Shown here: piece after piece, positions 2,430-48,860 of the stretch | Position numbering within the stretch: the stretch's first letter is position 1 | Layout of the letters: each line of letters opens with the position of its first letter | From: Symbiodinium natans | Taxonomy: Eukaryota > Sar > Dinophyceae > Suessiales > Symbiodiniaceae | NCBI GenBank assembly: GCA_905221605.1 | Contig: CAJNDS010001646.1 | Location: 336,001 to 400,000, forward strand | DNA: 64,000 bases | Reading direction: 5' to 3' | Notes under the pieces: generated by a model | Database searches by the model: none | Told to the model about the DNA's origin: nothing | What the model saw: the letters and a program-made list of their open reading frames with translations, nothing else | Program-made: the position numbers and the translations under genes

Positions 2430-3062
2430 AAAGGCTTCGAGAACAGCCCTCTACTGCCCTACCTCCAAGGCGGCGGGGACCTCGAGGACCAGTAGGCCGC
2501 CCTCCTTGCGTGGGTGGGGCCCACACGATTCGGAGAAGTTGACCTTCAACCACTAGACTACTAGAAGCGCAGCTTCGCTCAACGGCTCAAGGGCTCAACG
2601 GACTTAGAACCCCCTTGACGAACTCCTGACAGAGCTTCCCGCCTCCAGCAAGTCGTAGCCAGACGTGTGGGCAGCGTCCTTGCAGAGTGTTGGCCCGGCT
2701 CCCGACTGTCCGCAAGTCTTAGGCTACTCATTAATTATTAGGGTTCGGGGTTTTTAAAGGGGCATGTTGGGGCAACTGGAAATCCGGCTTGTTGTGCTTC
2801 TCGCGATTGCCCTTCTCGTCCCAACTTTGAGACCCGACGTATTTGACTTGCACATTATTGTATACAGATTCTTCAGCCGCGGCTAGAGTTAGGAAAACCG
2901 AGAGCCTCGTACTCCAAAGGCTTTAAAAAAACCTGACGTGGCTCGAGGCTTTATGGTTTTGGGTCTCAGGTGCGTAGGACAGGTGACTCGGCATGTTGCG
3001 AGTTTCTCCAGCTAGCTTTCACTTCGGGGTTGTAAGAGGTGACTCTGTGCAGACCAAGATAC
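2430..3062. other. Intergenic or intronic DNA, no firm gene
   Basis: On the minus strand near 2690-2640 a frame reads WLRLAGGGKLCQEF, faintly like the LxPGGxLxxE segment of HemK proteins. Its phase does not join the proposed exon at 3113-3063, so it is not called. Nothing else stands out. Confidence 0.3.
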
Positions 3063-3113
3063 CAAGGCCATGAGGAGGACGGAGTATGCAGCGATTGCGC
3101 CGTCGACATGACC
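3063..3113 (-). CDS. HemK-like gene, exon 9 (GHVDGAIAAYSVLLMAL)
   Basis: The 51-nt exon starts after AG|G and ends before a GT donor, phase 0 at both ends. HVDGAIAAY corresponds to the GGxDGLxxY loop that follows the EPxxAL segment in HemK proteins. Joined directly to exon 8 it is about four residues shorter than usual in this loop, so a further micro-exon or another acceptor is possible. Confidence 0.5.
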
Positions 3114-6100
3114 CTGCATAAGACTTGCAAAGGCACACTCGGACCTCAGGAGCCTAAGCTAGGCCCTCGATCTGGTTTCCCAAGCCCCCGAAACTGGGCC
3201 GGGAGGCCTTTCAAAGTCCAGATCCTTGCAAGGCAACGGCGATAAATGCCAGCACCACGAGATTCTCAAAACCCTGCCCAAAATCCCGAAAACCTAGAAG
3301 CGATAGACCGGGCTTCTTATATTGGGTCTTGGACGTGTTCGTGCGGACGGGGGCTTCCCAAAAACAGCTGGACGCGTTTGGCAGATTGCTCTTGATTGGC
3401 TGTGGGAAGGTGACTGTAAACGTGATGGACGAACAAGCTCACAATGTCGAGTCACAGCAAGTGAGTCCTGAATCCTGCGTTCTCATGATTCGCATGCGGC
3501 CTTGTGACCACCAAGCGCGGCCATCACTTTGGCCGTTCGCTGGAAAACGAAGGCCTGCCCAGTTTAGAGTAAAAAGTCATACAGGGAAGGCAGTGGGGCA
3601 GTGGGGCAATAGTGGAAATCGTACGTAATTTTGGGCACCTCCATCTTTCGGTTATTCGGACTGGAGGGGGCTCAGAGCTCACCCTAAGGTTCAAGAGACA
3701 CAGAGCCCCCCTCCCCTAAACCCTAAACGAAAGTAGCACAGAGGCACAGAGGCACCTGCCAAGGCTCTTTGGCCTGGAGCCGCGGCCCCAGCAATTCTTC
3801 AGCCTAGCGAGGGCACAGCAGAACTGATCTGGGCTTAGGGTTTCTATGGGGTTTGCGTAGGGCTTCCATACGGTTTCTATGGGGTTTCGATGGAGTTTCT
3901 AAACTGTCTTTATAGGGTTTCTATAGGTTTGGGGAACCCCGCGTTGGCCTGGGCTCTGAAAGCAAACTCTCTTTTCAGGTTCCGGGGCGCAACCCTTGGT
4001 TCCCGGCTTCATTGGCTTCGAAAACTCCACAACACTATACAACTCCTGCAAGGAGGTTGCCACGTGAACTCGGGATGAAAAGTGCCCTGTCAGAGGTGAT
4101 CCGAATCCTAACAATCACGGTACATTTCCCCAAATAGGGATTACCCCCTTTCTAGCCCAAATAGAATAGAATCTTGAAGGGACCCAGAAGGGGTGCCCCC
4201 CTTTTTCTTGGAAACCCCAGATCCGCAGGTTGCTCGTTGCCTGCGCACGGGTGAGGTAGGGCGGGTTGGCGACAACAACGTCGAAGCCGAGACCAGAGGG
4301 ACTCATCAGCGTCCTCTTTTGGCCGCTGAACAGGCTTAGCTTTTTGATGGGTTTGGGCTGCCGCGGGTTGCGACTAACAATTCCGGAGCTTCGGGTCAAA
4401 GGCTTATCACAACACAAACTCTGGAATCCCTCATGTTCGTGCTTCCAAACGCAATGTATCAAGACCCTTCCAAATCTTTTTGGGTATTCAGGTCTGCCTT
4501 CGTGCTTGCTTGGCAGACACCTGTACGTTTGAGTAGTAAAGACAAGACCAGTTGCCCTCATACTTCTGGCATGCATACGCCCGCCACCAGTTGTATTGTA
4601 AGTCATTATGTTGTCTGGCTTCCTCCAAAGCATCCCGTTGTTGCATGTGCTTGGAGATGAGTAGGAGGTCATAGAAATCGGTTCATGTGCTGGTTCCTTC
4701 AGGAAACGGGCTTAGCATACAGACTAATTCATGCGGACTAATCCCTTCCCCCTTTTACTAAAGACCACCCTAATAATAAAACACTTTCCGGAAAAATCCC
4801 AAATCCAAAAAATCTATTTAAACCCCCATTTTGAATTGGGGGGGGGGTCAGGCCTCCAATAAACCCCTCAACACCAATAAAACCCTCAGAGGGTGTAGGG
4901 TTTGGGGTCTAGGGTTAAGGGTTTAGGTTTAGAGTCCAGTCTTTTCGCAGCACGATGCTGTCTGTGAGCTGCCTGTCCGGCTGCCTGTTGCTGTGCTGCG
5001 AGAGTTGAGCTATCCCCCTCCCCCACCCCCCCCCCACCCCCCACCCCACCCCCCCCCCCCTCAAACCCTTTAAACCTTGCTGCAACCCCCCAACCCCCCA
5101 ACATCCTTTTTTAGTGTTTTTTAACAGAAAGCCCTCTTTCCTCCTTTCCTGTGCTGGCGGCAAAGACACATTTCGAGTCTTTATTCGGGTGGGGGGGGGG
5201 GGGTTGGGGGCCCGTTTAATAAGGAATTACAGCACGCTGCAGACGCCCAGTGCTTGGATTCGAGGCTTGGGGTTGGAGTAGTGGGGTTTTTAATTGGGTT
5301 AGAAGTACAATTATAATTGGGTTACTAAGTGTCATGAACCTCCAAGTGGGGCATTGGGGAGGTGTGCGGCGTGTGCGGATGCAAGGACTATACCTCCGCA
5401 GGTGCCTGACATCTGGCCTGCTACGCAACCACAACTCAACAGAGCTTTCAGAACCATCCTGGCCCGTTAACACCTAAACCCTGAAATCCGGAAACCGATC
5501 AACCCATAACCCTAAACCCCCCCATTCCCCCCCATTCCCCCCCTCTAGGACAGTTCCTGGCAAAGGGAGATCCGAGGTCGGAGAAGCAAGCCTCCACCTG
5601 GAGACTTGTTTGTGCGGACTACCATGCTGGTACCATCTTAGAATCAGGGCACACCTTTTGTGGGGGTTGGTTGCTTGATAAGGGAACCTTTAGTTCATGT
5701 ACCGTCCCAGGTCTACGTTTCCCATAAGAAGGCAGGGAACCCCTTTGTGGGTTAAATGGGCTCAGAATTATGGGGTTCTAGCCGTCGTCCAAAAACAGTC
5801 AACACAAGGAAAAATCCAGCAGCACTGGTCTCTGGGTTGGGGATTGGGAAGTTTAGGAATGCAGCGGAATACATCACTTGGAGCGAGGTGCTTGCGAATG
5901 AAAGTCGCAGGGCCCTTAAGCCATATTCCGGTTTGGTCTGCTGGACTTTGGTCACTCGTACTCGAGATTTGCTCAAGCATCGGTCCCTGGTTGACGCGTC
6001 GAGAACATGCCAGCACAAGCAATGTTGCACCCCTCAGCCCATGACCCGAAATGAAGTCCTTCCCAAGCCTTCTAAACAAGCAAGAGCTGGAGCAAGTCCA

Positions 6101-39868: not shown

Positions 39869-39873
39869 CCCTA
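39869..39873. other. Target-site duplication, left copy (CCCTA)
   Basis: CCCTA directly abuts the LTR end at 39874. The same five bases follow the other LTR at 48762-48766. Both lie in telomere-type repeats. Confidence 0.75.
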
Positions 39874-40176
39874 TACGGGGGGCAACCAAAGGGGGAAGGG
39901 ATCAACCCCGAAGACCGCCCAGAACTTATATTCCCCAGATCGACCAGCACAACAAACACAGAACACGGACCAGGAGAACCAGGGAAGGGAGTAAAGGGGG
40001 CCTATGCCTAAGCACCTAGGAACCAACCCCAACCCCAACCACGCGGGCTCTACCTTTTTTGAGCTTGTGGCCTTAGTACTTCTGGCCATCCTTGAGCCAA
40101 ACAAGATTTCCGGGTTTGTTAACCCTTCCAACTCCCAACACTAACTCTTTTCTACAATACCAGCTGCAGCTCCGCA
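39874..40176 (-). repeat. 3' LTR, 303 bp
   Basis: Identical by eye to 48459-48761 (constant offset 8,585, no indel). On the minus strand it begins TGCGGAGCTGCAGC and ends CCCCCCGTA. It carries a GAATATAAG box (39925-39934) that could serve as a core promoter, and a spliced-leader-like 11-mer (40091-40101). A long open frame across the LTR is not thought to be coding. Confidence 0.93.
40091..40101 (-). other. Spliced-leader-like 11-mer in LTR
   Basis: TTTGGCTCAAG equals the last 11 bases of the conserved dinoflagellate spliced leader. It is repeated in the other LTR at 48676-48686. It may be a relic of a trans-spliced transcript or chance. Confidence 0.45.
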
Positions 40177-40184
40177 CTCCCCCT
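40177..40184 (-). promoter_or_regulatory. Polypurine tract
   Basis: AGGGGGAG on the minus strand directly before the TG of the 3' LTR, the expected position for plus-strand DNA priming. Confidence 0.7.
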
Positions 40185-40547
40185 GTCCTAGGATTTCCTA
40201 GGACACATTGGAGGTGCAGATCTTTGGCCAAAAGCTGCCATTAGGGCAGCAGCCAGCTGCTTGAAATGCACAATATGGTTTTACGTCTTCCAGGACGAAA
40301 TTATAGCACATTGGCTAAATCCACTAACCATAGAGAATCTTTTTTCCACCATGATCCTCTTATCATTGAAGACTCTTCGGCCTTCTTCACCACAAACCGT
40401 GGTCTTCGCTACGTGAAAAACTACTGACTTCTACTATCAGGGATTTCCATACCCTTAATAGTAACCACCACATTTTCAGCACATTGGCCGATCCAGCGCA
40501 CCTGTCTCCAGAAAGAGAAAAACCATCCCTTCATCCATACCATCCAG

Positions 40548-43500
40548 TCACTTCTTTTTCCGATGGTTTGCAATACTGAGGTGAAGTTGCAGCAGAATAT
40601 ACTCCAGGTCCGAAACTGCAAGAACAGGATCCTGCACGCACCTTTGAATTGAGGATACCAATCCTTCTCTCTTTGCGTCCTCAATCGCTTGGCAAGATTG
40701 ACCCAGCTCTGCACTCACAGCGGTAGACGCTTGCGCATCCACATCAGAGGGACGATCCTTTTCCTCAGGACCTTTCACCACCACCACTTCTTCCTTTTTG
40801 GGGCTCTGACTTTTCTCCTTCTTCTTCGCCTTTCCACCGACGTTTGACTTTGTGCGCATTTTCGAGGCTTTTTCCCCTGCAGAAACCACCGCATTGGATG
40901 ATGATCCACCCTTCTCAATGGTCGCCGGCATCTTCTTCGGCTTTGGAACCAGGAGAGTGTAAGGATCTTCGATAACTGCAGTTTTCCTCTTCTTTTTAAC
41001 CTTTGTTACCTCCTCCTCAACGGCAACCTCCGTCTCAGAAGTCTCAACCACCTCCTTTTCGGCAGGAATATCCTTGCTGGACTCCCTTTCTAGGGACCTC
41101 TTCTTGCCCCTTTTGGGATCTTTTTCTTCTTCCACGTTGGCTCGCTCGAACCATATCCTCAGGTCATTGACCCATTCTTCCACCTCCGCGAGTGAAACCT
41201 CATACGACTTCACTACTTCGTGAAGTTCCAGCACGGACAGCATACCGGTGGTCCACGAAACCCATTCTCTATCCATCTGGTCAGTATCTCCATTGAACTT
41301 CAGGAGTTTGAACAGTGGGTCCGCCTCTGCTCGAGCCAAATCTGTTTTGCCATTGGACAGAAATGAAATCGCCTCCATCAACAGTTCCGCCATTTTGGTA
41401 TCATCGTCATATGTCATGGAATACTCCTCACCATCATCGAACTGTTCAGGAGAGATCTCCTTTTCCCCACCTTTTGCACCAGAACTTCTCCTTGGACCAT
41501 CCCTTGGGGGCGTCCTTGGAGACCTTGGCCTCGGTTCATCCAGCGGATCACCATGCTCAAAAACACACCTGTCACCATAACGACACTTCCCAGACTGAGC
41601 AAACTGGATGCACCTCACACCAGTTGCATCATGCGAGAACGCACACTTCTTTCCAGCGAAACAGGGTCTCCCCGCCACATAGTATTTGCACCAATACGAA
41701 TGCAGCACCACATCATCTTCTGAATGGATGAATTTGCAGTCTTCACCAAATTTGCAGCGATCTTTTCCCTTACTGAACCAATAGCAGAAGCCTTTCTTCC
41801 TCTTCTCCAAGCGCTCCGCCTCGTACCGGTCCATAGGGCGATTCTGCTCTACATGAACATTGCCATGTGCCTGAAAACTGCTCCCTTCACCCAAGGTGCT
41901 ATCAGTACTTGATGCTTGGAGTACAGCTGGAAAACCTGGCCTTGGTCCTACCACCTTCATAATTTGTTTTCCGCCAGCTCCTGAGCCACGCTGAGACGAT
42001 CCAAAAACATTGAACTTCTTCATGAAGGCCTTCCTAGTGCCGATCTTCTGCACCCTTTTGATTGGATGTTTCATTGCTCCAACCTTGCATCCAGATACGT
42101 TCAAACGACACAACCTCCTATTCCCAGCTCTATATCCCTTTTTCCAAAGAGCCATAAGAATTTTAGAGGCAGTAACATTCTCCACCTCTACCTTTTCCAA
42201 CGGTCCCTCACTTCCCGGAACAAACCCATCCAACCCATCCATATCTGAAGACCTTTCCATCTTTTTTGACACCACTTCGTCGAGGTAGTCTTCAGAGATC
42301 CAGGGTAAGTTCCTCTTAGAGGAAGGATTGTCACCATTGTTTGGTCCTTCACCAGGATACCCCTTTGTGCTGTCAAAGATCTTACCAGTAGTGCGGTCCT
42401 GCGTAGAGAAATTGGAAGCAACGCGAGAGTACACTGACCACAAGAAAATCCTTGTGCCCGCCAGTCTTGACGACCCACTGGATGTCTCCTCTTCCGGAGA
42501 AACTTCTGGCGCTTTGCCATCCCTTCCAGTGTCACCAATTGTCTCACCTCCAGCATCTTCAATGGGAATAAGGGATTCATTGTTCCCTTGATCAAGTACC
42601 GCATCTTGTTGTTCGGGGATCTCCAGCACCATTCCTGTAGGATCCACTTCCTCATCAGCATCGTCGTCCATTCTTCTCCAGAGAACCTCCAATTGATCAG
42701 CGCAGGTCGCCGCCTGAAGGAACTCCATCATTTGGTCCCTCCCGTGCTGCCAGAGAAATTCGGAATTCACCACTGTCCCTTGGCCTCCTAGTCTAAGGAA
42801 TGGAGCGACCAGATTGGCTACCCTTGCCATAAGTTCCACATGAACTTCCATGCCTGGACTGCGACTCCAATCATAGGCTATTGCCTCCATAGCAGTTCCA
42901 AACTTTTCAGTATTTCTGAATTCCTTTTCCAGGCCAGGAGAAAGCAGTGCACCCATCACCGAAAGAGGATAATTCCCCACCACCGGCAAGCACGGATCTT
43001 CATGGAACGAATGATGCAAATCTCCGTAGTGTCCTTGATCTCTCCTTTCAAAAAGGAGTCTCCCAGTGTTCAACTGGGCATTCAGTTCATCCACTTGAAC
43101 CATTTCAGCACATATTCTCTGTGCCGCAGTCGCTATTGCCGGCCAGATAGCACGATCTGCCAACCCACGACGCATAACCCAAATAGTTGTTGCCGACTGA
43201 ATCAGTGTACCAGGGTCATATGCCATGACCACCAATGCACCATCATCCATTTTCTGATCAGCATCATCTTCCAGTGCCAGGTTCAAATCCTGTTCGCTTG
43301 CACCTTCAGATGACATGCTAATAACCAAATTTCGATCCATTTTATTGGACCCCTTCTGATAGTCCTTGTGCCCCACAGGCAACTTGCCGACAGCAACCTT
43401 CCAATAAATCCGATTCAGAAGACCTTTAACCAGCAATTGCTGAGGAACATTCTTCACCGGACGAACATCCAATGTCTTCGCACCATCACCACGGAGTTCA

Positions 43501-45434
43501 TTGCTCCCACCTTCTCCTTCGTTTTGGTCAGTCTCCTCGCCAGGAATTTGCACTGCTCCTTCCAGCGCCGTCTCCTGTCCAGCCACTTCTTGCCCAGGAA
43601 GAACTTGAGCGCTTCCAGATACATTCACCTGTCCAGCAACACCTTGCCCAGGTAAAACCTCATCCGTGGAGCCCACCGCCAGCGAACCAACTATAACTGA
43701 GCCATCCCTTGCTCTTTTTTGAGACTGTTCAGTTCGACGAGAAGGTTGTGGTAGCGAAAAAACTTGAGAAGTCACTTCTTGGCGGGTCTCCCCCCGCGAC
43801 GCTTTGTCGCGTTCTTCGCCAAGGTGAACCGATTTTTTCTGCCCGTCATTGGGGCCGGAAGAACCACCCATCGGAACATTGCCACGAATCGCAGTTCTCT
43901 GTGAATCCCTTTCTTGCAAAAGGATTTCCCTCATGCGTTGCACAGCATTGGTCTCTTCCTCGCTTGAATCGCTTGAGGAAGCGGCATAAGAAACCAAAGC
44001 CTCCGCCTGATCATCATCATCCACCACATCTGCCCACGCTCTGCTGAACCGATACGACAACCCACCACGAGGCTTCAGTTCCAGTGGTTTTGGTTTCTCC
44101 ACCACTTCCGCCGGTTGCGCTCGTCGCTGTGAACGAGAGCGTGGCACCTGTCGCACCTGTTTTTTATCCAGCAAGGGCCTTCCCCTTTTTACAGGGTTTG
44201 ATCTTGACCGATACTTTTTTGTTGGTGGGTTCACCGGCGGCATTCCAACTCCCACCAACTGCAGCTTCTGTACGCACAGTGGAGACCTCTGCGCAAGCGT
44301 CCAAGCGTCACGGTACCTGACCTTATCAAAAAGCTCCCGATAGGAGCCTCTCGGCATCGTTTTTGCACCGGAGCCTTCAGCTTCACGCATCTGAGTGAGG
44401 GTTCGCACCGCCTCTCTTCCAGCTTCCTTGCTCCCAGAAGATTGTTGTACTCGTACAGATGCATCGGAAGGAACTGCTTTTTCCGGTCCTCCCGGACGAT
44501 ATCGGACACCACTCACCAATTGCAAGATTTTACATGCTGTCACTTTGTTGATCCCTTTGTCAACCAAATCTTCCACAAAGATGAACTCTTGCAAGTCGGA
44601 CACGTTGGTCACACCAAGTGTAATCATCACCTCACTTACATGAGGGGTATACACCCAAAGGTGTTCGTTGCGAGCCATCCAATTTTCAATTGGCTCCTCT
44701 GGATTTTGAAGCCGAGTACCAGTGGACTCAGCCACCGAATTCTTTTGTTCATCATCTTCTGCTTCATCCAGATTACCCTTTTCACCTTCTTTTTGTGACA
44801 CATTGGTCATTTGCAGCGCTTTTGGTGCCGAGGAGGACGAAGATTCTGCTCCCCCACTTACCGGTGGTTGAAAGGCGTTCCTGTCGGGAATCTCCAATCC
44901 TCTTCCCCTTTGAAATGACACATGGTTCGCCACATTCACCAGATGCTTCAATTGGGCCAGCCGGTCTTCAGACATTTCTTCGTGAGAATACTTGCAGCCA
45001 AATCGCACACGACATCTCCCTTTGAGATAGTAGTCGAAACAGCACTGGTGGAACCCCGCGTCCCTTAGTGCCTTCCTGGAAGCATTGTCCCAAGATTTGC
45101 CAGGCTCCCAAGTCCCTTCCAATGCCATGTCATCGTCGTGAAGATACCTGCATGCAGTCCCATATTTACAACCACCTTGATTGTAATACAGACACAGCCG
45201 TTTCTTCGTTTCACCCAACGTAGGCTCACCTTTTGATGTCCCTTTGCCATAGTTGTACTGGGCACGGAAGGCCGAATCCTCCCGCTCCTGCTGCACCTCA
45301 TCCACTGCACCTTCATCAGTTGGAGGGCCACCGATCCTCGTCACCAGTTTTTTGGCTGTTCCTTGGCTCAGTTGGCTCTCCTTCAGGCCACCCTTCACCA
45401 TAACGACGATGTTCATAGGAACACCCATCTCCAT
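40548..45434 (-). CDS. Retroelement ORF B, 1,628 aa, five CCCH zinc fingers
   Basis: CCCH fingers lie at residues 81-99, 132-151, 1217-1237, 1249-1268 and 1275-1294; all keep C-x7-9-C-x5-C-x3-H. Residues about 264-309 (VMITLGV, then EDLVDKGINKVTACKILQLV) resemble a SAM domain. A basic R/S/K-rich stretch spans 406-440, acidic and low-complexity linkers follow, and the C-terminus (about 1430-1560) is Lys/Glu-rich. The 680-920 region is predicted globular but unrecognised. The first Met overlaps the last CCCH finger of ORF A in another frame, so this frame may be entered by +1 frameshift, by internal start, or the two may be one 2.6-kaa ORF broken by an indel. Likely role: RNA binding/packaging (Gag-like). 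No catalytic pol motifs were seen. Confidence 0.85.
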   Translation of the reverse strand: MEMGVPMNIVVMVKGGLKESQLSQGTAKKLVTRIGGPPTDEGAVDEVQQEREDSAFRAQYNYGKGTSKGEPTLGETKKRLCLYYNQGGCKYGTACRYLHDDDMALEGTWEPGKSWDNASRKALRDAGFHQCCFDYYLKGRCRVRFGCKYSHEEMSEDRLAQLKHLVNVANHVSFQRGRGLEIPDRNAFQPPVSGGAESSSSSAPKALQMTNVSQKEGEKGNLDEAEDDEQKNSVAESTGTRLQNPEEPIENWMARNEHLWVYTPHVSEVMITLGVTNVSDLQEFIFVEDLVDKGINKVTACKILQLVSGVRYRPGGPEKAVPSDASVRVQQSSGSKEAGREAVRTLTQMREAEGSGAKTMPRGSYRELFDKVRYRDAWTLAQRSPLCVQKLQLVGVGMPPVNPPTKKYRSRSNPVKRGRPLLDKKQVRQVPRSRSQRRAQPAEVVEKPKPLELKPRGGLSYRFSRAWADVVDDDDQAEALVSYAASSSDSSEEETNAVQRMREILLQERDSQRTAIRGNVPMGGSSGPNDGQKKSVHLGEERDKASRGETRQEVTSQVFSLPQPSRRTEQSQKRARDGSVIVGSLAVGSTDEVLPGQGVAGQVNVSGSAQVLPGQEVAGQETALEGAVQIPGEETDQNEGEGGSNELRGDGAKTLDVRPVKNVPQQLLVKGLLNRIYWKVAVGKLPVGHKDYQKGSNKMDRNLVISMSSEGASEQDLNLALEDDADQKMDDGALVVMAYDPGTLIQSATTIWVMRRGLADRAIWPAIATAAQRICAEMVQVDELNAQLNTGRLLFERRDQGHYGDLHHSFHEDPCLPVVGNYPLSVMGALLSPGLEKEFRNTEKFGTAMEAIAYDWSRSPGMEVHVELMARVANLVAPFLRLGGQGTVVNSEFLWQHGRDQMMEFLQAATCADQLEVLWRRMDDDADEEVDPTGMVLEIPEQQDAVLDQGNNESLIPIEDAGGETIGDTGRDGKAPEVSPEEETSSGSSRLAGTRIFLWSVYSRVASNFSTQDRTTGKIFDSTKGYPGEGPNNGDNPSSKRNLPWISEDYLDEVVSKKMERSSDMDGLDGFVPGSEGPLEKVEVENVTASKILMALWKKGYRAGNRRLCRLNVSGCKVGAMKHPIKRVQKIGTRKAFMKKFNVFGSSQRGSGAGGKQIMKVVGPRPGFPAVLQASSTDSTLGEGSSFQAHGNVHVEQNRPMDRYEAERLEKRKKGFCYWFSKGKDRCKFGEDCKFIHSEDDVVLHSYWCKYYVAGRPCFAGKKCAFSHDATGVRCIQFAQSGKCRYGDRCVFEHGDPLDEPRPRSPRTPPRDGPRRSSGAKGGEKEISPEQFDDGEEYSMTYDDDTKMAELLMEAISFLSNGKTDLARAEADPLFKLLKFNGDTDQMDREWVSWTTGMLSVLELHEVVKSYEVSLAEVEEWVNDLRIWFERANVEEEKDPKRGKKRSLERESSKDIPAEKEVVETSETEVAVEEEVTKVKKKRKTAVIEDPYTLLVPKPKKMPATIEKGGSSSNAVVSAGEKASKMRTKSNVGGKAKKKEKSQSPKKEEVVVVKGPEEKDRPSDVDAQASTAVSAELGQSCQAIEDAKREGLVSSIQRCVQDPVLAVSDLEYILLQLHLSIANHRKKK

Positions 45435-48390
45435 TTCGACACCTCCCTTGATTGAAGAACCTGCACAGCTTGCTGTATCCAGGTGACACAGTCTTTGGAG
45501 TCATGTGAGCCTTTTTGTACTGATCAGGATCCATATAGGCTTCCATTGGCCTGTTTTCCCTCTTACTCATCTCCTCGATTGCACCATCAAGCTCTTGCAG
45601 AAATCGCTTGGTATCCAACCACAGCTCGTTCCAAAGCTCATCTTTCCCTTTGCTCAGCAACATTGCCACCGTTTCACCCACGACTGGTCCACTAAATCTC
45701 CTTTTCTTGCGTGCCAGTTCGTAGAGCGCGTTGTGGTACTGCTTCCGGGAAAAAGTGATTGTTTTTTCCAAACCTGCACGTTCTGTCCCCTCGGGCTTCC
45801 AACCATCACTTTGCAAGATGCTGTATGCGCTCCGAGCCTCAACGTTCAGGAATGTATGATCTGCGATACACTCCATAATCACGTCCATTGGACGACTCAG
45901 CAACATCCCAGTGATTTTGCCCACATAGTCATTATCTATTGTTTCATCTTCCAGGAGATTTCGATAGATCTTTTCTCCATAGAGCTGCTTCTGCTCAGCC
46001 TCCTCTTGTTCCTTAGAGGATGTTTTTGAATCGGCAAACCACTCGCGAGACTGCCGTTCTTCCGACTTCCAGTCCCATTGACCGTCGGAACCTTGGTACC
46101 ATTGACCAGTCTGCCATGAGCCTGTCCACCATGTACCCCAGCCGCTGTCTTTCCATTTGCGCAGCGTCGAAGAGGAGTCCTCCTCGTCCTCTTCCAAAAC
46201 CAGAAAGGTGTCCAAGATTATGGTACCATCATCTTCCACTCGTTTCACTGTTCCATTGACAGTATCACCAAATTTGAACTGATGTACGTTGTTCCCTTCT
46301 GCAGGAATCAATACATTCATATCTCCATGGTCCAAAAAAGCTCCATACCCATTGATGCAGCGCACTAGACCAATGATCTCATCTCCCTCTTGATAGCAAT
46401 GTTCCCCAGGTGATTCCAAGGCTCCCGCTCGGGGCACTTTCTTTGCATGCTCTTCAGAAACCATCTCTGTATCATCGGCTCCTGGCACATCCTTTGTTTC
46501 CACCTTTGGGTCACACTGCTCGTCCTGCTCCGGCACGAGTTCCACAAGATCATCCATCTTGTGCTCCAGGGGCTCAGGACCTTCCTTTTTTCCAGCCAAT
46601 GGCTTTGCCTCATCCGTTACAGTTCGCTCGGTGTCGACTTCCGGCGAGCTTTCAGATGGCAACACTTCTCCCTTCCTGGGAGTGGACCCACCATTGGAGT
46701 CCTTTTTCAAACCTTCTGCAGCAGGCAAATTTTCTTCCACTACAGGGCTATTGGATTGGTCATCCGCGGTAGGCACATTTTCTTCCACCGCAGGCTCCTT
46801 TGGCTCCATGGTTTCCAAAAGAGAATCACCACTGTTATTGACCACAGCTGCCTCATTGGCTCCGGCGTAGCCTTCGCCATTTCGTTCCTCGCTGCTAACT
46901 TCAGGCTGCACCAGTGCGTCCACCTGTGAACCTCCATCGTCAGCTGCTACGGAGACCTGCGCCCCATTGTTGCAGTCATCCGCGGAACGTGACACCATAT
47001 GCGCCTCAACCCGTGCTTTTTCTGCACTCCAGGTACTATCTGGCACGTTGACCCGCGCTTCATTGGCGCTCCAGGCCTCATCTTTCCGATCAACCGTGTC
47101 TCCAGCAGTTTCAGAAGTTTCCTTTTTCCCTTGAATGGCAGAATCATTGGCACCAACCGAAGAGACCTCCTCAGGCGTAACGCACGACTTTTTCCCTCCG
47201 TCATCCAAATCTCCAGGACCATCTTCCTGAACGACAGGTACCACATCCACCACTCGCTCTTCTGCAGCCGACACAATTCCGATCTCCACATTGGGCATTT
47301 TTTCTTCTGGACCCACCGATTCCACCGCTGCCACACCCTCAGAAAGCGCCTCCATCTCTTCCCGATCCAGATGTTGAGCTTCAGCGATGTCTGCTCGGTT
47401 TCCAGAAATCCCCTCTTCATCAGGAGAACCCGAGGTCGGGGCGTCACCACCAGCCCTAGGACCGCTATCCCTGATAGTAGAGGAAAAATCTTTTTCACCT
47501 ACACTATTTACACTACCCTGGAATGCCTTCGTAGACTCAGGTGTCGGTGTAGTCGATAAAGGACCCAGTTCAGTCTCCACTTCCAGCCCATTGCCCGAAG
47601 GAGACCCAACCACGTTGTCGCTTTTCACCTTTTCACCTACATCCGACAGCGTCCACTTGCTTTCCTGCGTATCCAGGCAGTAGTAATATTGTCTCCCATC
47701 TTCGTGGAAGTGCCATTCCCACGTTGTCCCATCGCACGCTTTGATCAGATGCTCATCTTTCCGAAAACCATCCCTTTCAGAGACTTGATGCATCTCATCC
47801 TCTTCTTCTGACAACTGGCGCAACCTTTCAGCCTCCATCTGTAAGATCTCCTCTTCCCCCATGGCGTATTCAGCAGTTGGTGCGGCTTCAAAGCTGTCCG
47901 CACCCTTCTGTTCGTAACCGCTTCCACCACCCAGGGAACTCGCCGAGGGATCCCCTTTAATCTTGTTCAGAGGCCTCCTGGCAGCTTGCAGCACTTCTCC
48001 ACTCAGATTGGTCTGAGACCCTTGGTCTACCATTCGGCCCGAAGTCGAAGTAGACGGCTGATACCCATGTTTGTGCAACACGCGTAAAACAGTCACCTCC
48101 ATTTCACGGTCTATACCACCAGTCGCGTCCCAGCTCCTTTTTTCACCAGGCTTTGGCGATACAGAAACAGCACGTCCTTCAGCTTCAGCATTGCTAACCA
48201 TATCCACATTGGGATTCATACCCACATTGGAGTCTTCTGCAACCAAGGCTTCTTCCAGATGTTCTTCAGCGCCAGGCATCACCTCTTCCAGCACCGCCCT
48301 TTCACCCAGAGACTCAGCTGCACCATTTCCAGCTCCACCATTCTGTCCACCATCCGAGGAAGGCTGGAGCCATCGTTTGGGAGAAGGCAT
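45316..48390 (-). CDS. Retroelement ORF A, 1,024 aa: WW, S1-like, MLLE and CCCH domains
   Basis: The start ATG at 48390 is the first in frame after the LTR, 68 nt from the primer site. Residues 224-246 form a WW-type motif (W-x(7)-GRQYYYCLDTQESKW). Residues 251-660 are acidic and repeat-poor, probably disordered. Residues 669-732 match an S1/OB RNA-binding fold (GDEIIGLVRCINGYGAFLDH ... GTVKRV). A Trp/Gly-rich patch follows at 746-775. Residues 801-861 match the MLLE (PABC) domain of poly(A)-binding protein, with GEKIYRNL and the hallmark KITGMLL; MLLE domains bind PAM2 peptides of translation and deadenylation factors. A CCCH finger lies at 976-994. The frame ends with TGA TGA inside the overlap with ORF B. 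Interpreted as a Gag-like RNA-binding protein; which host RNA or protein it binds is unknown. Confidence 0.85.
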   Translation of the reverse strand: MPSPKRWLQPSSDGGQNGGAGNGAAESLGERAVLEEVMPGAEEHLEEALVAEDSNVGMNPNVDMVSNAEAEGRAVSVSPKPGEKRSWDATGGIDREMEVTVLRVLHKHGYQPSTSTSGRMVDQGSQTNLSGEVLQAARRPLNKIKGDPSASSLGGGSGYEQKGADSFEAAPTAEYAMGEEEILQMEAERLRQLSEEEDEMHQVSERDGFRKDEHLIKACDGTTWEWHFHEDGRQYYYCLDTQESKWTLSDVGEKVKSDNVVGSPSGNGLEVETELGPLSTTPTPESTKAFQGSVNSVGEKDFSSTIRDSGPRAGGDAPTSGSPDEEGISGNRADIAEAQHLDREEMEALSEGVAAVESVGPEEKMPNVEIGIVSAAEERVVDVVPVVQEDGPGDLDDGGKKSCVTPEEVSSVGANDSAIQGKKETSETAGDTVDRKDEAWSANEARVNVPDSTWSAEKARVEAHMVSRSADDCNNGAQVSVAADDGGSQVDALVQPEVSSEERNGEGYAGANEAAVVNNSGDSLLETMEPKEPAVEENVPTADDQSNSPVVEENLPAAEGLKKDSNGGSTPRKGEVLPSESSPEVDTERTVTDEAKPLAGKKEGPEPLEHKMDDLVELVPEQDEQCDPKVETKDVPGADDTEMVSEEHAKKVPRAGALESPGEHCYQEGDEIIGLVRCINGYGAFLDHGDMNVLIPAEGNNVHQFKFGDTVNGTVKRVEDDGTIILDTFLVLEEDEEDSSSTLRKWKDSGWGTWWTGSWQTGQWYQGSDGQWDWKSEERQSREWFADSKTSSKEQEEAEQKQLYGEKIYRNLLEDETIDNDYVGKITGMLLSRPMDVIMECIADHTFLNVEARSAYSILQSDGWKPEGTERAGLEKTITFSRKQYHNALYELARKKRRFSGPVVGETVAMLLSKGKDELWNELWLDTKRFLQELDGAIEEMSKRENRPMEAYMDPDQYKKAHMTPKTVSPGYSKLCRFFNQGRCRNGDGCSYEHRRYGEGWPEGEPTEPRNSQKTGDEDRWPSN
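45409..45465 (-). other. CCCH zinc finger of ORF A
   Basis: C-x7-C-x5-C-x3-H (CRFFNQGRCRNGDGCSYEH), nearly the same spacing as the five fingers in ORF B. It lies across the start of the ORF A/B overlap. Confidence 0.85.
45808..45990 (-). other. MLLE (PABC) domain coding segment
   Basis: Residues 801-861 of ORF A. KITGMLL is the signature heptamer of the C-terminal domain of poly(A)-binding proteins; the flanking GEKIY and the following helix (MDVIMECIADHTFL) fit in order and spacing. Confidence 0.75.
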
Positions 48391-48446
48391 TGCTTCTTGA
48401 TCCCAATCAACCTTGAAAGAACACTTAACCGCAGGGAACCTAATTT

Positions 48447-48458
48447 GGGCTCATAACC
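48447..48458 (-). promoter_or_regulatory. Primer-binding site for half tRNA-iMet
   Basis: The plus strand reads GGGCTCATAACC, equal to the anticodon arm of yeast-type initiator tRNA-Met, immediately next to the 5' LTR. Drosophila copia and yeast Ty5 prime from this internal tRNA fragment instead of the tRNA 3' end. Confidence 0.75.
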
Positions 48459-48761
48459 TACGGGGGGCAACCAAAGGGGGAAGGGATCAACCCCGAAGAC
48501 CGCCCAGAACTTATATTCCCCAGATCGACCAGCACAACAAACACAGAACACGGACCAGGAGAACCAGGGAAGGGAGTAAAGGGGGCCTATGCCTAAGCAC
48601 CTAGGAACCAACCCCAACCCCAACCACGCGGGCTCTACCTTTTTTGAGCTTGTGGCCTTAGTACTTCTGGCCATCCTTGAGCCAAACAAGATTTCCGGGT
48701 TTGTTAACCCTTCCAACTCCCAACACTAACTCTTTTCTACAATACCAGCTGCAGCTCCGCA
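48459..48761 (-). repeat. 5' LTR, 303 bp
   Basis: Identical by eye to the 3' LTR. It is followed in element sense directly by the primer-binding site. Confidence 0.93.
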
Positions 48762-48860
48762 CCCTAAACCCTAAGACCTAAACCCTAAGCCCTAAGCCCC
48801 AAGCCCTAAGCCCTGAGCCCTAAATGCCTAAACCCCTAAAGCCTAAACAGCTAAACCCTC
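48762..48860 (-). repeat. Telomere-type array with right target-site duplication
   Basis: CCCTAAA, CCCTAAG and CCCTGAG units. The first five bases (48762-48766) are the CCCTA duplication. Confidence 0.85.

Follow-up and report, generated by a model that had tools for sequence, protein, structure and literature searches.

The 64-kb window analysed here (the whole stretch C1646:336001-400000, from a 759-Mb assembly of Symbiodinium natans in 2543 contigs) carries at 39874-48761 a young long terminal repeat (LTR) retrotransposon that has no pol genes and whose sense strand is the minus strand. Its two 303-bp LTRs show zero differences over their full length, and with a target-site duplication (TSD), a primer-binding site (PBS) and a polypurine tract (PPT) in place (Table 1), the complete LTR architecture claimed by the original prediction is indeed there. 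That prediction had also named an assembly duplication of the LTRs as a possible source of error; this is not the case, as 34 of the 40 LTR matches scored, among 1254 candidates in the assembly, form 17 same-contig pairs. Two open reading frames (ORFs), A and B, which overlap in different frames, are the sole ORFs of at least 250 residues in the window, and Pfam finds inside the element neither the RVT_2 reverse transcriptase (RT) nor the integrase that would make it an autonomous Ty1/copia element. Two tRNA-Met genes in the assembly have an anticodon arm with which the PBS pairs over 14 nt, beginning with the first base past the LTR; we take this tRNA to be of the initiator type from its features. 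A genome search with an initiator-form tRNA-Met pattern located the motif at 6 places, a pattern with an elongator T-loop gave no match in the genome, and Rfam and tRNA scans of the 64-kb window returned nothing. The 21-nt dinoflagellate spliced leader (DinoSL) is present in the assembly in 205 exact copies against none for its reversed control; the host thus uses DinoSL, and its prediction as a dinoflagellate was correct.

Table 1. Features of the element and its insertion site, in window coordinates.
Feature	Position	Strand	Remark
Target-site duplication CCCTA, copy 1	39869..39873	.	inside telomere-like (CCCTAAA)n repeat
3' LTR, 303 bp, sense TGCGGA...CCCGTA	39874..40176	-	
TTTGGCTCAAG, last 11 nt of DinoSL, 3' LTR copy	40091..40101	-	LTR position 76-86
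PPT CCTAGGACAGGGGGAG	40177..40192	-	adjoins 3' LTR; comparison of 16 elements
ORF B, 1628 aa	40548..45434	-	3' part of an ORF that is single in other copies
CCCH zinc finger (ORF B 1275-1294)	41553..41612	-	Pfam, motif
CCCH zinc finger (ORF B 1249-1268)	41631..41690	-	Pfam, motif
CCCH zinc finger (ORF B 1217-1237)	41724..41786	-	Pfam, motif
CCCH zinc finger (ORF B 131-151)	44982..45044	-	Pfam, motif
CCCH zinc finger (ORF B 81-99)	45138..45194	-	Pfam, motif
ORF A, 1024 aa	45316..48390	-	5' part of an ORF that is single in other copies; frame broken near 45335
CCCH zinc finger (ORF A 976-994)	45409..45465	-	Pfam, motif
MLLE domain (ORF A 794-859)	45814..46011	-	Pfam E 1.2e-7, above cut-off
S1-like domain (about ORF A 667-732)	46195..46392	-	relatives below cut-off, and fold
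PBS GGTTATGAGCCCAA	48445..48458	-	adjoins 5' LTR; complementary to tRNA-Met anticodon arm
5' LTR	48459..48761	-	same letters as 3' LTR
TTTGGCTCAAG, last 11 nt of DinoSL, 5' LTR copy	48676..48686	-	
Target-site duplication CCCTA, copy 2	48762..48766	.	

The description of this locus as having two ORFs holds for the letters as read, but the split is a break of this particular copy. Among 48 related public proteins, all of them gene predictions, 32 contain both halves, and 31 of these read straight through the junction between A and B, the lone protein in another frame being P0041; at that junction the window copy is 8 bases shorter than the genomic copy L009. ORF B supplied a 989-aa stretch with which 46 out of 2143 candidate places in the genome were scored (91-100% identity); 13 of these 46 copies have a stop-free frame of 2611-2631 aa, as opposed to 1650 aa in the window copy. 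Because the relatives are continuous and these genomic copies stop-free, the window copy is a broken member of a large family that has intact members. Of the A/B elements examined with both LTRs, the 13 besides the window copy are all broken too, at differing points, and some of these breaks could be assembly errors. L009 was considered as an intact copy and set aside, its frame being open across the junction and meeting a stop further on. A programmed +1 frameshift between A and B, in the manner of Ty1, was likewise dropped, since a copy-specific break is the simpler account of a point at which nearly all relatives are continuous. In L017 and L019 a portion of ORF B is inverted within the element and lies in opposite frames.

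In intact copies the two halves together encode a protein of about 2,620 aa, in which Pfam recognises the MLLE domain and CCCH fingers that had been predicted, six of the latter by motif count. At E<=1, Pfam profiles match no RT, integrase, protease or RNase H in ORF A or B, as the prediction of an element without pol genes had it, nor any gag family, and the WW and SAM-like domains once read into these ORFs have no match at this threshold either. The S1-like reading fares better by fold than by sequence, where the three longest relatives give sub-threshold Pfam matches only (E 0.049, 0.19 and 0.11). The AlphaFold model of ORF A 640-1024, poor overall (58.9), has 11 of its 724 PDB matches at E<=0.001, S1 domains included, the best being an RNA exosome chain (E 9.2e-5) and the S1 domain 1wi5 following at 6.7e-4; the assignment, weak by sequence, is thus supported by the modelled fold. 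In comparison, ORF B 640-1240 yields a model with a mean pLDDT (AlphaFold's per-residue confidence) of 36.7, and none of its 75 PDB matches in Foldseek reaches E<=0.001. Judging from its CCCH, S1-like and MLLE domains, the protein would presumably serve as an RNA-binding scaffold. A scan of viral contigs for relatives of A/B confirmed none.

Selection on this protein, which the original prediction had postulated, is borne out by the ratio of nonsynonymous to synonymous substitution rates (dN/dS), computed over in-frame aligned stretches of at least 60 columns with frames left unrepaired and without stop-containing codon pairs or the initial 33 residues of ORF B. Against all four diverged copies (L018, L019, L021 and L023; dS 0.68-0.96) the ratio is 0.28-0.32, or 0.40-0.54 for part A and 0.23-0.27 for part B; against eight close copies (L009-L016), which show few changes, it is 0.28-0.73. 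Because the ratio is near 0.3 against the diverged copies, we conclude that the A/B protein is under purifying selection across element generations. The 24 ligand columns of the CCCH fingers are 93-100% identical versus 78-89% for their neighbours (9 to 32 proteins per column), and diverged A/B subfamilies exist, with 47-82% identity in aligned pieces. With a coding and selected interior, the element is not a large retrotransposon derivative (LARD), the class defined by a long internal region devoid of coding capacity; nor does A/B show the recognisable gag domain of a TR-GAG or gag-only element.

A search of the genome for related elements with pol, as the original prediction had proposed, found two, L022 and L024+L025. 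Both carry copia pol and, among the elements examined, both lack A/B; in L022 the RVT_2 match (E 9.1e-11) is above the Pfam cut-off. Together with 14 A/B elements they make up the 16-element set to which the following counts refer; it was drawn from the best-scored LTR matches, is not a random sample, and omits L020 (C2507) and L026-L028, for which no LTR start was found, or which have one LTR only or are flank. The same LTR surrounds A/B in 14 of the 16, the first 14 nt of the PBS are constant in all 16, and the PPT letters are constant in 15, L155 having one change. Alignment of the window element with L022 covers the LTR, 31 nt past the 5' LTR and 57 nt ahead of the 3' LTR, the last of these extending 19 nt into a flanking repeat, and no further alignment longer than 70 nt exists at E<=1e-4. 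The parts common to the two are the cis sequences required by a trans-acting RT and integrase. A pol-bearing copia element in this genome thus has the LTR, PBS and PPT of the window element, as expected for a Ty1/copia satellite. Since L022 and L024+L025 share with it the LTR, PBS, PPT and telomere-repeat target, it is most likely a non-autonomous satellite of a Ty1/copia lineage, copied in trans by a partner, and this describes it better than the "distinct class of dinoflagellate element" originally suggested, given that LTR, leader match and PPT are common to it and the pol-bearing partner. At E<=0.1 no Pfam family matches the 813-aa first ORF of L022, which occupies the place expected of Gag and is gag-like by position only; BLASTP finds no similarity between this ORF and A or B (E 2.2 and 0.36). 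With neither this similarity nor a Pfam gag family, the original label "gag-only" is unsupported.

Two features of the partners may be recorded in passing. In the pol ORF of L022 (6023-9139, + strand), a stretch between the integrase-like and RT parts, at roughly residues 130-260, has no match in Pfam; by its HRD...H pattern it presumably resembles a 2-oxoglutarate/Fe(II) oxygenase. The L024 partner, on C155, exceeds L022 in length by about 3 kb and contains a degenerate repeat block at about 2747-5351.

All 16 insertions of the set lie in sequence matching the telomere-like repeat at 14 or more of 24 bases, versus 7.6% of window positions and 2.0% of positions at other loci; at 16 or more of 24 bases the figures are 14 of 16 insertions versus 4.4% and 0.9%. 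The TSDs are perfect in 14 of the 16 elements, and 11 are CCCTA or TAGGG. Two-unit telomere-like matches (CCCTAAACCCTA or TAGGGTTTAGGG) occur at 61 places in the window, about one per kb; the target is therefore interspersed and not only terminal. Other copia families were found in other simple repeats, with one insertion each: C136 in (TTTG)n, C1724 in a GGGGGGCTTAAA repeat and C604 in TTTG/GT. This hints at family-specific repeat targeting among copia families, and we treat it as a lead only. The repeats (TTTG)n, GGGGGGCTTAAA and GT/TTTG are seen in L048/L049, L038+L042 and L039+L043, respectively.

Unexpectedly, TTTGGCTCAAG, the last 11 nt of DinoSL, lies in sense orientation at LTR position 76-86 and ends at the splice junction. 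With one mismatch allowed it occurs 5 times in the window where 2.1 are expected, the two exact occurrences being the LTR copies, and the full DinoSL is absent from the window at up to three mismatches. In the 16 aligned 3' LTRs GGCTCAAG is invariant; the U3 region upstream of it falls into differing types, and the sequence downstream is similar. The TTT part varies (TATCT, TCTTT, TGTCT). Several LTR matches from the genome search begin at LTR base 76 or 78.

The same leader end recurs in other copia families. Five loci (C652, C1724, C604, C1877 and C136), viewed in part, were chosen regardless of leader from a list of 20 other copia loci drawn from the RVT_2 table, and LTR pairs, each 100% identical, could be delimited in C1724, C604 and C136. 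All three carry the leader end in sense, over 11, 10 and 9 nt, ending at LTR position 86, 75 and 71, respectively, so that the 3' end of the leader is found as a 9-11-nt sense relict in all five LTRs tested, from four families. Among 20,000 dinucleotide shuffles, the match was reached by 7 for the window LTR, 49 for L022, 4 for C1724, 7 for C604 and 32 for C136. As an antisense control, the longest match to the leader 3' end in these LTRs is 5 nt, and that to any antisense piece of the leader 7 nt. The LTRs of different families align with one another only over 9-17 nt around the leader match (E<=1), and the pol proteins of C1724 and C604 are 36% identical. At C652 the letters of C136 appear near its 3' end, 5000 bases of the locus reading N.

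Three side observations concern the leader. In the 3' LTR of L015 two copies of GGCTCAAG stand in tandem (TTTGGCTCAAGGCTCAAGGATGG) where the U3/R boundary is presumed to lie, and the length of the 5' LTR (311 bp) is consistent with the same doubling; slippage and misaligned strand transfer are the candidate causes, and plain slippage may suffice. In L050 (C575:40200-40800), a single 601-base piece chosen for its leader, a copia PPT is followed at once by a hairpin-like stretch of 70 nt and then by the full 21-nt DinoSL; this may represent either an LTR that includes the whole leader or an insertion of another kind. Finally, C479:102078-129887 contains six full DinoSL on one strand, with start spacings of 3766, 3792, 12671, 3773 and 3787, and may be an array of spliced-leader genes.

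In dinoflagellates the leader is joined to mRNAs at an AG. We propose that trans-splicing of the element's RNA would use the AG at the end of the leader match, giving an RNA whose 5' end consists of DinoSL followed by the rest of R. A half-tRNA-Met would then prime at the PBS, and the minus-strand strong-stop DNA would end in a copy of the leader, which could anneal to the leader match in the 3' LTR. Extension into U3 would restore the same LTR, so that the leader match would be kept in every cycle. The integrase of the partner would insert the cDNA into CCCTAAA repeats, and the A/B protein may help its own RNA to enter the partner's particles. Taken as a whole, a satellite with one ORF, copied and inserted in trans by a copia partner, its 11 leader nucleotides predicted to mark the start of R, is probably the best explanation of this family. 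The broader proposal, that in dinoflagellate copia elements, autonomous and satellite alike, the trans-spliced leader constitutes the start of R and the leader end in the LTR is the landing site of first-strand transfer, renewed each cycle, we favour by a narrower measure. Such a landing site would account for three observations: of the leader only the 3' end survives, it stops at the junction, and in four families this point lies 71-86 nt into the LTR.

Several points weigh against this account. Trans-splicing, the boundaries of R and trans-mobilisation are features that we infer from sequence, and the leader match in the window was first noticed by eye. The pol-bearing partners seen number just two, each with its pol divided among several ORFs, and in L024 both the RVT_2 match (E 3.2e-5) and a piece of the rve integrase (E 0.003) are below the Pfam cut-offs. 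The match spans 9-11 nt of a leader of 21-22 nt, and a full leader copy terminating the strong-stop DNA would leave 10-13 unpaired bases to be trimmed or left uncopied. The leader-bearing families may share one ancestral LTR, in which case they would not be fully separate events. The copia group of C1877 and C575 has leader-like letters with no LTR pair found; at C1877 a 12-nt match lies about 520 nt past the PPT, and there is no second LTR within 15.5 kb. GGCTCAAG is also absent from eight 3.7-kb RVT_2 pieces, which end 1.5 kb past the RT, short of the distances at which LTRs were located.

The leader match could instead be a fossil, left when a copia ancestor captured a spliced leader in the manner of dinoflagellate retrogenes; it would now either have no role or act as a promoter motif of the TTTG type. 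Relicts of DinoSL are well documented upstream of retrogenes, and TTT(G) has been suggested to act as a promoter, in two reports (PMC6050394; PMC12014239). Nevertheless, LTRs that fail to align elsewhere retain the same 9 nt up to the splice junction, and the TTT part varies whereas GGCTCAAG stays constant in the aligned 3' LTRs; we regard a fossil as unlikely. To us it is equally unlikely that A/B is a divergent Gag belonging to the family itself, which would make the element the gag-only member of a system with gag and pol on separate partners, in the way of TR-GAG or BARE2. The zinc fingers could act like a nucleocapsid, long helical stretches are seen at ORF B 760-925, albeit in a poor model, A/B is under purifying selection, and the putative Gag of the partner is itself without a Pfam match. 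However, neither the profiles nor the fold search of the ORF B segment reported above recover a gag family or a confident PDB match, and A/B does not resemble the partner's first ORF, which, if it is Gag, would make a second one unneeded.

The missing pol and the broken frames of the A/B copies examined suggest a third reading, in which a normal copia died or was truncated, its pol decayed and a host gene was captured by accident. This reading is already contradicted by the same LTR recurring around A/B and by the ORF B protein at 46 scored places, and diverged subfamilies with dN/dS near 0.3 also speak against it; we consider it very improbable.

Many of the individual parts of this picture are already known singly, namely pol-less LTR satellites, half-tRNA priming, telomere-repeat targeting and DinoSL relicts. 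TR-GAG, BARE2 and other plant non-autonomous LTR elements are alike in lacking pol and in presumably being moved by a relative that has their LTR, PBS and PPT and acts in trans; unlike them, the window family lives in a dinoflagellate and encodes a large MLLE/six-CCCH/S1-like protein with no recognisable gag. Drosophila copia primes with a half-tRNA, and like it the window element has a PBS that adjoins the LTR and is complementary to the anticodon arm of a tRNA-Met; unlike it, the window element has no RT of its own. By eye, the PBS of C1724 and C136 match the 3' terminus of this tRNA together with CCA; a scripted test against the tRNA gene gave no match, CCA not being gene-encoded. Yeast Ty5 inserts in or near telomere-type repeats. 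So does SART1 (PMC7265360), which is specific to telomere repeats and is a long interspersed nuclear element (LINE), whereas the window family is LTR/copia and uses an interspersed CCCTAAA-type target with a 5-bp TSD. The DinoSL-tagged retrogenes of the two reports cited above, seen in excerpt, likewise carry a genomic leader 3' part ending at the splice junction, whereas here both LTRs contain the leader end, and in each of four families it lies similarly far from where the LTR starts. The nearest idea is a dinoflagellate RNA virus with a 5' DinoSL, described as possible mimicry in the accessible text of PMC10235124, and the excerpts of PMC5890265 and PMC6050394 attribute to dinoflagellates many copia elements and heavy retroposition. 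A leader inside LTRs was not reported in the literature surveyed, partial texts included, subscription journals being mostly outside its reach. A copia satellite with an MLLE/CCCH/S1-like protein is a new form of such a satellite.

Spliced-leader trans-splicing swaps the 5' ends of mRNAs and should, by doing so, disturb the R-to-R strand transfer on which LTR elements depend. The leader end in the LTRs would be a simple answer to this problem and, at the same time, a mark for the limits of U3 and R in dinoflagellate LTRs. The satellite shows that an element without pol can retain a 2,600-aa protein under selection, and its family suggests that a copia lineage can prefer telomere-type repeats as its target. 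If the proposal is true, spliced-leader capping would be compatible with LTR retrotransposition, which would account for the persistence of these elements in hosts that replace the 5' ends of their mRNAs.

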